Assembly: GCA_024281075.1 (NCBI GenBank)
Contig: JAMXLK010000072.1
Coordinates: 1-38,409 of the forward strand
Source: Vulcanimicrobiia bacterium
GTDB lineage: Bacteria; Vulcanimicrobiota; Vulcanimicrobiia; Vulcanimicrobiales; Vulcanimicrobiaceae
Length of the DNA stretch: 38,409 nt
Reading direction: 5' to 3'
Position numbers and translations under genes: made by a program
Shown here: positions 18,537 through 22,094 of the stretch, one piece after another
Layout: each line of letters begins with the position of its first letter
How positions within the stretch are numbered: the first letter of the stretch is position 1
The notes under the pieces: model-generated
Databases searched by the model: none
Told to the model about the DNA's origin: nothing
The model's input: the letters and a program-made list of their open reading frames with translations, nothing else

Positions 18537-18644
18537 AGGGCACCGTTCTCCACTGGGCCGGCCGCATCCAGCAGGCAGCCACACGGCAGTGTGGTCGTAA
18601 GCGCTCTTCGATCACATCAGCGTGCCTGCCATCGTACAGAGTGG

Positions 18645-18650
18645 TACAAT
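18645..18650 (+). promoter_or_regulatory. Candidate -10 box of the 18687 gene
   Basis: TACAAT at 18645-18650 is a good -10 match 37 bp before the start codon. No convincing -35 hexamer lies 16-18 bp upstream. Confidence 0.35.
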
Positions 18651-18686
18651 GCCGGCGTAGTTTTTACGAGGGGAGGACTTGGGTCC

Positions 18687-19082
18687 ATGAAGCGATTTCC
18701 TTTTCTGAGCGGTGTGGTCGCTGCGACGGCCGTCATTTTCGCAATTCCAGCCTACAATGCCGGCGCGCAGATGATGGGTACGCCCAATCTCACCGGCACT
18801 TACAATATCCAAGCAACGGGCGACACTCTTCTTGTCGGAACCGTCCGTCTAACGCAGCAGGGCTCGACCGTCGTCGGTTCCGGTCGCACAAAAAGCGGCG
18901 GAACGTTGCAGTTCAGTGGAAATTTGACCAACAACAAACTGGACGGGACGTGGCGTGCACCGAACAACGAAACAGGTTGGCTGACGATCAACTTCCAGCA
19001 GAATGGACGCGGCTTCAGCGGTGAGTGGGGCTATCACGGCAGGAAGGCAAACGGCAACATCGTCGGCACGCGCCGGATGTAG
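18687..19082 (+). CDS. Small secreted beta-rich protein
   Basis: ATG 18687 has GGGGAGG about 11 nt upstream; the frame extends to 18288 but the upstream part is not protein-like. The 131 residues begin with a Sec signal peptide ending near NAGAQ (residue 28). The mature domain repeats G-T-x and strand patterns (NLTGTYNIQATGD, LDGTWRAPNNETGWLTINF, FSGEWGYHGR) like small lipocalin-like or META-type barrels in which each strand pair ends G-x-W. No catalytic motif is visible. A strong terminator follows. Confidence 0.75.
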   Translation: MKRFPFLSGVVAATAVIFAIPAYNAGAQMMGTPNLTGTYNIQATGDTLLVGTVRLTQQGSTVVGSGRTKSGGTLQFSGNLTNNKLDGTWRAPNNETGWLTINFQQNGRGFSGEWGYHGRKANGNIVGTRRM

Positions 19083-19096
19083 AGTCGACCGGAACC

Positions 19097-19127
19097 AAAA
19101 GACCCGCGGCAGCGCGCGGGTCTTTTT
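19097..19127. terminator. Strong bidirectional intrinsic terminator
   Basis: AAAAGACCCGCG (19097-19108) pairs with CGCGGGTCTTTT (19115-19126) around a 6-nt loop. T runs occur on both strands. It separates the small secreted protein gene (+) from the PqqA-like gene (-) and can end both. Confidence 0.92.
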
Positions 19128-19152
19128 CTTTTTCCGGGTTCGTGCTAAGGCG

Positions 19153-19269
19153 CTAACTGCCGATCGAAAGCGTCTTTGTCGCGAATGGCTGCGTATTAAC
19201 GTACGCGGTGACTTCGGCGCCTAACGGACGCTCCTCGAAGTCGGGTCGTTCCCATCGTTGCTTCTTCAT
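19153..19269 (-). CDS. pqqA: PqqA-like RiPP precursor peptide (38 aa)
   Basis: ATG 19269 to TAG 19153 encodes 38 residues, with GGAGG 4 nt before the start. The core WERPDF...LGAEVTAYVNT aligns without gaps to the Klebsiella-type PqqA peptide (W-x2-P-x-F-x4-L-G-x-E-V-T-x-Y). Glu19 and Tyr23 have the exact E-x3-Y spacing of the two residues that PqqE crosslinks to build pyrroloquinoline quinone. The N-terminus has five extra residues and the C-terminus about a dozen beyond the core (ending TLSIGS), longer than the classical 23-29 residues. No pqqB, C, D or E is in the window. It lies 38 bp after a PQQ-type propeller lipoprotein gene and before a terminator. Confidence 0.8.
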   Translation of the reverse strand: MKKQRWERPDFEERPLGAEVTAYVNTQPFATKTLSIGS

Positions 19270-19307
19270 TGTACCTCCAAAAGAAGTTTTTAAAGAAAAT
19301 GTGCGTG

Positions 19308-22094
19308 CTAGCGGTCGGGGGGCCATGTCGCGGGCGAGGAATTTACGCGCTGGACAACGGTCGCGTGCAAGATGCCGGAAGCGTCGTACGTTCCCCTCGC
19401 GTTGTACGGTCGGCCGACGACCAACACGTTGGTTCGCTCGTTCCGAATGGCCACGGATTGATCGACCTTAATCAGTTTTCCGCTACGCGTGCGTAACGCA
19501 AACTGCGACCCGTGAATCGCGACGAGTATCCCCGTCACCTCGTGCGGCGCGCCGAAGGCGTACGACTGAGCTTTTGCCGCAATTGGTTGTGCGAACTTTT
19601 CGTTCCCATGAACGAGCCCGAAGATGTCCAGCTGCTGGAAGCTTGCAACGTAGACTTGGCCGTTTGCGACCACCGGAACGAGATTTGCGTTTCCGCCCGG
19701 CGACGCCCACGAGCCCGCGGGCGCCTGGAACAGCGTTTGCAGCGGTCCGCTGCCCGAAGGCTCCGACTTAAACGCCAAAAGCGTAATGTTTCCGGGAACA
19801 GTTTGCGGCCGCGCGACCGCCCAAATGATGGCACCGGCCTTGGATCCATCTGAAGATATCGCGGTGAAGAAACCTGGATCTTGCCCACTCGGCAAAGTGG
19901 GCGAAAGTGCCGCCAGCGACAATTTTTCGGCGGTGCTCAGGACTTTCCACACCGTCATTTGGAAGCCGCCGCTGGCAACGATTCGGGGCGCCGAGTCACT
20001 GGTCGCGTTGAAATACGAGAGCCCGCACCAGCACCGGCCGATGTTCTGCTGATCGAGAACTTGATTGCGTCCCCTTGAATTGAAGCCGCCCAACGAGTTG
20101 GCATTCATGAAGAACATCGTGCCTTGTTTGCCGGCCGCAGCAGCGAACGGCACCGGCCCCACCGACGGAGGAAGCAGCAACAGCCCGCCTCCCCCAAAGT
20201 CGTCATCCGTCTTTTCGAGCTCGGCGACGTCATAGGGTGTAAAGAAACTGAGCAGTTGCGTGAGATCCGGGCTCATCTTGGCCGCGGACTCCGATATGTT
20301 TGTCACGCTGTTGTACGAGTTTCCGGCCGGATCGGAGTTTCCGGTGACAAAGTACACGTTACCGTTTGGATCTGCCGAAATACCGTAGCCCGACATCCAG
20401 ATTGCGTTCAAGAAGTAGTTGTTCTGCGACGTCGCGAGCTGATCGGTGAGCTCGTTTGCCGCAAGCGGCGTTAACGAACCCGCTTGCCAGCCGAGTAGCC
20501 ACCCACGCGACAGCGATGTGGCAAAGTCGCAAAAACTGCCGAAGCCGGCGTAGACGTTCCCATTCGAAAGAAGCAGAGCCGGCCGTTGCCTTTGGACGGT
20601 TGCGTTGAACGTGTACGTAGTCCCGTCCGTTAACAGATGTGAAGCAGTCACCATGACGGGTGTAGTAACGTCGGACAGGTTGGAAAGACTGAGTTCGTGG
20701 ATGATATACTCCGGCGTACTCCCTTGCAGCGTGTAGGCAATGACGTACATCACGTTGGCATTTTGATCAATGACCGGCGTCCCGTCGATCCCGACATTTG
20801 GGCCATTGTTAAGGCAGCCTTCCGGTAACGGCACCGGGGTTCCCAGATTCTGCTGGAACAGCACCGTCCCGCTCGACGCGTCGATCGCATAAACCGTATT
20901 GTGCTCCGTCGCAACGTACGTCACGTCGTGGAGACCCGGGTTAACACCGCGAGTCGTCGTTTCATTAGAAACGACCAACGGCTGCGTATCGACCTGATCG
21001 TCAAGCGCTACGGCATGCAGCAAACCGAACTTCTTACCGCCGACGCTCTGATACGTGAGCGACGACTCGCTACTGTCCCATCCGGTTCGCAGATTATCGT
21101 AGTGGTACGTCGTGACAGAGATTTTGCTATTCCGAGCTTGGCTGAGTGCTATGGACTCTGGTCCGCCGGCATCGGCGATCATCACCGTGGGCCGATCGCC
21201 GGCCGGGTAGCGATACAGCGTAACGGACGCACCTGCGTTCGAGGCGCCGGCTACGACGATTTGCGCGCCGTGAATGACGAACTGCACGGTTTTTCCAGCA
21301 CCCGTGAGCGTGGCACGGCCCACGTCCGTCGCAAAGCCGAGACTCACTCTGTATCTGATCAGCGTCAGGCTTGCCGAGCCTTCCCGGCTCTCTGCTGCGA
21401 GGAACTTGCCGTCCCATTGGATCGCATCAACCTGCGCCGAACGCATCCGGCCCAATGCGATCTCTCTGAGTCGGGTGTCACCCTTGCCGAGCTCTAATAG
21501 CTGCGTCGTCCTGCGTACGTCCGCTGCGGTGAACGCGACGAAGAGGTTTCCACGGCTGTCGTACGTGCAAGAGCCGTACGTGCCGTTGGGGCCGGCATAC
21601 ATTTGCGGGCTGCCCTTGGCGTTCGCGTAGATCGTGAGGCCGCTCTCTTTGCGATCACCGCCGGAAACCGCGAGGTTGCCCGTGGTGGGATCGACCGCAC
21701 AAAATTCGGAGCTGCCGCCTAGCGGATTGCGCAGCACCGCAATTGGACGTACCCCGCCGTGGGCGTATTCTCGGATAGTGTTAGCTTGGGATAGAAAAAC
21801 GTTGCCGCCGGAATCCGTGCAAAGAGCACCAGCGCTGACGTTCGGGATCTGGCCCTTGAGCTTTCCTTGAGGATACGAGTAGATGTCGACACCGTTATTG
21901 TTGCGGTTCGACACGTAGAGCAGGTCTTGACCCTTGGCCTCGCCGAGCATCGATGAGGCCTCGACGTTGAGCGGACCACCCGCTCCGGGAACCCTGGGGC
22001 TCGGCCCCAAGAGAGTACCGCCATTCGGGCCGCACGCGCTAAGTGCGAGCGCGCCAATCAAAAACAGCAGTAATCGTGTTGCATGCAACCTCAT
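19308..22094 (-). CDS. Large PQQ-type beta-propeller lipoprotein
   Basis: The 928-residue product has a lipoprotein signal with LSAC and Cys21; AGAGGTG lies 9 nt before ATG 22094. Residues about 55-330 form an NHL-like propeller (DLLYVSNRNNNGVDIYSYPQ and repeats). A second, quinoprotein-like propeller begins at TTYHYDNLRTGWDSSESSLT and continues with FGLLHAVALDDQVDTQPLVV, VYAIDASSGTVLF and G-I-D-G-T-P-V-I-D, the pattern of PQQ-binding-like repeats seen in many soil bacteria. Most such proteins have no proven cofactor. It is exported and membrane-anchored; enzymatic activity is unproven. The PqqA-like peptide gene follows it on the same strand. Confidence 0.88.
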   Translation of the reverse strand: MRLHATRLLLFLIGALALSACGPNGGTLLGPSPRVPGAGGPLNVEASSMLGEAKGQDLLYVSNRNNNGVDIYSYPQGKLKGQIPNVSAGALCTDSGGNVFLSQANTIREYAHGGVRPIAVLRNPLGGSSEFCAVDPTTGNLAVSGGDRKESGLTIYANAKGSPQMYAGPNGTYGSCTYDSRGNLFVAFTAADVRRTTQLLELGKGDTRLREIALGRMRSAQVDAIQWDGKFLAAESREGSASLTLIRYRVSLGFATDVGRATLTGAGKTVQFVIHGAQIVVAGASNAGASVTLYRYPAGDRPTVMIADAGGPESIALSQARNSKISVTTYHYDNLRTGWDSSESSLTYQSVGGKKFGLLHAVALDDQVDTQPLVVSNETTTRGVNPGLHDVTYVATEHNTVYAIDASSGTVLFQQNLGTPVPLPEGCLNNGPNVGIDGTPVIDQNANVMYVIAYTLQGSTPEYIIHELSLSNLSDVTTPVMVTASHLLTDGTTYTFNATVQRQRPALLLSNGNVYAGFGSFCDFATSLSRGWLLGWQAGSLTPLAANELTDQLATSQNNYFLNAIWMSGYGISADPNGNVYFVTGNSDPAGNSYNSVTNISESAAKMSPDLTQLLSFFTPYDVAELEKTDDDFGGGGLLLLPPSVGPVPFAAAAGKQGTMFFMNANSLGGFNSRGRNQVLDQQNIGRCWCGLSYFNATSDSAPRIVASGGFQMTVWKVLSTAEKLSLAALSPTLPSGQDPGFFTAISSDGSKAGAIIWAVARPQTVPGNITLLAFKSEPSGSGPLQTLFQAPAGSWASPGGNANLVPVVANGQVYVASFQQLDIFGLVHGNEKFAQPIAAKAQSYAFGAPHEVTGILVAIHGSQFALRTRSGKLIKVDQSVAIRNERTNVLVVGRPYNARGTYDASGILHATVVQRVNSSPATWPPDR

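Follow-up and report, generated by a model that had tools for sequence, protein, structure and literature searches.

The window (the whole stretch of 38,409 nt that was analyzed, i.e., contig C72 of an assembly of 164 contigs with a completeness of 86.5% and an estimated contamination of 1.48%) carries an intact pqqA-like gene located outside any pqq operon, and an operon with its own pqqA is found elsewhere in the same assembly, on contig C106. The orphan is probably a second pqqA, the peptide of which would be matured in trans by the PqqD and PqqE of C106 and would add to the supply of PQQ precursor, with a control of its own. The initial annotation had recognized this peptide correctly: the observation is real, and it is an ordinary one given the rest of the genome.

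The orphan pqqA occupies positions 19153..19269 on the minus strand (read 19269 -> 19153), as shown by the translation, by the Pfam and TIGR02107 models and by an internal stop on the plus strand of the same interval. It encodes the peptide MKKQRWERPDFEERPLGAEVTAYVNTQPFATKTLSIGS, 38 residues followed by a stop (a length range of 23 to 39 residues is given for PqqA in PMC2294125). A GGAGG motif, read from the sequence at 19274..19278 on the same strand, lies 4 nt 5' of the ATG and is a likely ribosome-binding site, so that the 38-codon reading frame with a good ribosome-binding site described earlier was borne out. A promoter scan of 18550-19700 around the gene found no sigma-70-like promoter. 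The peptide had also been described as extended at both ends, which holds for the C-terminus, where 15 residues follow Tyr23 (among the 39 peptides of the lineage only the one from genome G020, with 16, has a longer tail), and does not hold for the N-terminus as a special feature, the operonic relatives being equal or longer there.

The peptide was assigned to the PqqA family by both curated models, scoring 30.1 bits against Pfam PF08042 (cut-off 21.1) and 38.7 bits against TIGR02107 (cut-off 20; E 6.3e-10), and on this basis we classify the reading frame as a predicted PqqA, in agreement with the identity first proposed for it. A search of the whole genome with the Pfam model recovered the orphan at E 3.4e-6, while the same model had zero matches in 14 control genomes. 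The nine matches over 21 core positions that had been counted against the Klebsiella peptide agree with what we take to be the sequence of that peptide. The residue pair joined by PqqE consists of a Glu and a Tyr of PqqA; the corresponding residues of the orphan, recognized by motif and alignment conservation, are Glu19 (codon 19213..19215, minus strand), expected to be linked by PqqE to Tyr23 (codon 19201..19203, minus strand). They belong to an E-[VI]-T-x-Y motif present in all 39 lineage peptides, and P9, G17, E19, T21 and Y23 were invariant in an alignment of 26 of these, so the conservation on which the earlier proposal depended was found throughout.

A location inside a pqq operon is usual for pqqA and is not required. 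Neither tblastn of the window with PqqB, C, D and E from this genome as queries (E<=1e-3) nor the genome searches for these families had any match on contig C72, which supports the initial annotation in that no modification enzymes are within reach. All of them were found on C106, where pqqA, pqqC, pqqD, pqqE and pqqB follow each other in this order and are followed by an S9-family peptidase gene, and where PqqE (508 bits), PqqD (53.5), PqqB (293) and PqqC (294.6) all score above their cut-offs. The pqqA of this operon differs from the window copy. At E<=0.001 the search of the genome retrieved only the window copy; with the limit raised to 0.01 the C106 copy came up as well (E 0.0018), a weak score probably due to a Tyr that replaces the Trp usual in the others. 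One further match, on contig C21 (E 0.04), was judged to be due to chance. A search for PQQ alcohol dehydrogenases, limited to the family TIGR03075 and to this 86.5% complete assembly, gave five matches, none above the cut-off (best 44 of 480 bits). Two neighbors of the C106 operon were also recorded. The gene directly 5' of its pqqA encodes a DesA-like desaturase (L035:6585-7424), relatives of which precede pqqA in 15 of 39 PqqA loci, this one included. The S9-family peptidase gene 3' of pqqB (L035:1564-3531) could encode the protease for releasing the Glu-Tyr pair once it has been joined.

Since both models match, Glu19 and Tyr23 are conserved and pqqD and pqqE are present in the genome, PQQ synthesis in trans, one of the two options originally offered for the orphan, is the leading reading. 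Accepting it, the orphan peptide, which has the features that these proteins are expected to need, would be passed to the PqqD and PqqE of the C106 operon, its Glu19 and Tyr23 would be joined, the pair would then be cut out, and PqqB and PqqC would complete PQQ. We infer both the maturation in trans and a regulation distinct from that of the operon, the latter because the orphan stands behind a 928-aa gene and outside the operon. Against this reading stand the promoter scan, with no sigma-70-like promoter near the gene, the location of the orphan, which is not conserved among nine testable orthologous loci (see below), and the TIGR03075 search, from which no user of PQQ in this genome is evident. 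The second option, in which a related maturase would form another product, is without positive support, as the genome search for PqqE and PqqD returned a single PqqE above the cut-off (508 bits; two others were weak, with 57 and 21 bits) and a single PqqD, and all good matches are those of C106; within these two families, a different maturase was rejected accordingly as a candidate. For the same reason, and because its core is the same as that of the operonic peptides, it is very unlikely that the orphan has a job of its own beside the 928-aa gene, be it as the substrate of another radical-SAM enzyme or active in unmodified form, even though its C-terminal tail is longer than in 37 of the 38 other peptides.

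Orphan pqqA genes are already known from methylotrophs, and orphan or multiple copies are described in Methylorubrum, Methylovorus and the Methylophilaceae in the accounts cited here. In Methylorubrum extorquens AM1, pqqA2 and pqqA3 are likewise extra copies outside the pqq operon of their genome, and they change in expression while most pqq genes stay unchanged (PMC11317620); this bacterium is, however, unrelated, and its copies are ones for which expression was measured. The Methylophilaceae, with 3–12 pqqA copies and one set of the other pqq genes (PMC4109929), and the PQQ producer FJNU-6, with five copies, three of which stand apart, a highly expressed one among these three (PMC9851590), resemble the present case in that pqqA outnumbers the other pqq genes and that some copies stand alone; in the window's genome, by comparison, two were found. 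For Methylovorus MP688, the supply of PqqA is reported as rate-determining (PMC11317620, citing Ge 2015). The orphan in the window thus extends an arrangement described in methylotrophs to another lineage.

In order to place the orphan among its relatives, 98 genomes (the window's own and 97 others) were searched for PqqA at E<=0.01, which gave 39 matches in 36 genomes. Within the fetched stretches or contigs, pqqC or pqqB lies directly downstream in 34 of these 39 loci, two are truncated where their contig ends (G078:C27 and G066:C62), and three are orphans, namely the one in the window, G024:C187 and G020:C56. When the search was widened to 103 genomes of the order, one more operonic copy turned up (G110), and a profile built from the lineage peptides added another one (G032); two further profile matches at E ~0.04 were dropped as chance. 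No match to the orphan peptide was obtained in a plasmid search. PqqE was found at E<=1e-60 in 35 of the 98 genomes (above the cut-off in 33), including 34 of the 36 with PqqA; the exceptions are G003, where a contig end truncates the pqq operon, and G020. The orphan in G024, from the same family as the window's genome, is also a second copy, with the pqq operon on another contig. Unlike the one in the window, it is followed after ~5.4 kb by a gene for a PQQ alcohol dehydrogenase (520.9 bits against TIGR03075), and the interval contains genes for cytochrome c and aldehyde dehydrogenase. The three orphans, each in a different neighborhood, amount to a natural experiment, if a small one, on whether additional precursor genes link the supply of PQQ to particular pathways.

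The third of them, in G020 (L072 798-927), lies between genes for an amidohydrolase and an NmrA-like protein, behind molybdenum-hydroxylase-like genes; its start is one base behind the amidohydrolase gene and its stop overlaps the start of the NmrA-like gene. Searches for PqqE and PqqC in this 96% complete genome found neither; sequence may be missing, the contig may be misplaced, or the gene may be a relic. Of all the loci, this one hints most strongly at a PqqA outside PQQ synthesis, and it favors a separate job for the orphan in the window as well. More generally, some PqqA-like peptides of the group could have left PQQ synthesis for other operons (that of the propeller gene in the window, that of the amidohydrolase and NmrA-like genes in G020), matured there by another enzyme or unmodified, although we give such a departure very little credence.

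The 928-aa gene upstream of the orphan (19308..22094, minus strand) has a lipoprotein-like start and propeller-like repeats, and its stop lies 38 nt before the pqqA ATG; co-transcription of the two genes is possible. A role of its product as a PQQ-dependent dehydrogenase was considered and is unsupported: the protein falls below the cut-offs of PF01011 and PF13360 (20.8 bits for the latter, cut-off 27.6), has no NCBIfam match at E<=0.01 and gave only weak BamB matches in a PDB sequence search (E 0.008). A comparison with a real PQQ-dependent dehydrogenase gave one short blade-like stretch, with a probability of 10.5%. A structure model based on 2 sequences had a mean pLDDT of 33, too low to speak for or against a PQQ-binding propeller fold. 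Within the genus, relatives of full or near full length (54–61% identity) occur in 11 further genomes, and 12 loci behind such orthologues were examined besides that of the window, three of which were dropped (a contig end, Ns together with a contig end, and a break inside the gene). None of the nine testable loci has a PqqA motif within ~1.4 kb, so the location of the orphan is not conserved and a conserved propeller-pqqA pair was not seen in the genus. A relative of the 928-aa gene precedes pqqA in two of the 39 PqqA loci, in G071 (L066:4998-6896) and G077 (L064:7089-8999), where the propeller gene, 36% identical to that of the window, is directly 5' of pqqA. This pairing would suit a peptide acting beside the propeller, but in both genomes it is part of a normal pqq operon (with a phosphoesterase gene 3' of pqqE), which points to PQQ. 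The N-terminal ~320 residues of the 928-aa protein belong to a large paralogous family in the genus, the protein having as many as 44 matches in a single genome, and a scan of genome contigs with the protein retrieved one Acidobacteriaceae record.

The absence of pqqA from all nine orthologous places would also be expected if the window held a stranded copy, i.e., an intact gene left by transfer or by an old duplication and without effect on PQQ synthesis. The nearest cores point in the same direction, as they are operonic ones from other genera (G059 and G029) and not that of the genome's own operon: over 16 codons the orphan differs from each of the former by nine synonymous and zero amino-acid changes, and from the C106 pqqA by six synonymous and four amino-acid-changing ones. 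The orphan, being closer to G059 and G029, did not arise as a recent copy of the C106 pqqA, and the core sequences fit an origin by transfer or old duplication. We nevertheless consider a copy without effect unlikely, since the reading frame is intact, the ribosome-binding site is good and the amino acids of the core are identical despite the nine synonymous differences, when a random change in these codons would be synonymous in 25–30% of cases. Judged from the codons, such conservation argues against decay, although part of that history may lie inside an operon.

That the closest cores belong to other genera of the family could also mean that contig C72 stems from another organism and was binned wrongly, in which case there would be no genome with two pqqA genes, and the G+C content (59.6% in the window vs. 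62.5% in the 12 kb around the operon) would be in line with this. Such an artefact is nonetheless highly improbable given the estimated contamination of the assembly (1.48%) and a neighboring exonuclease, the best match of which has 73–78% identity in 13 of 17 relatives of the same genus. The exonuclease is equally close to G029, from another genus (76%), and C72 is therefore placed more firmly in the family than in the genus. The pqqA sits in the middle of its contig without any other pqq gene nearby, and is thus an orphan whoever owns C72. On the other side of the orphan, a convergent small gene with a secretion-signal-like start (18690..19082, plus strand, its ATG chosen within a longer reading frame) is without a Pfam match. 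Between its end and the pqqA stop, a structure scan located a 12-pair hairpin (19097..19126, z -3.15), which was called as a terminator only for the plus strand; on the minus strand the T run is just four.
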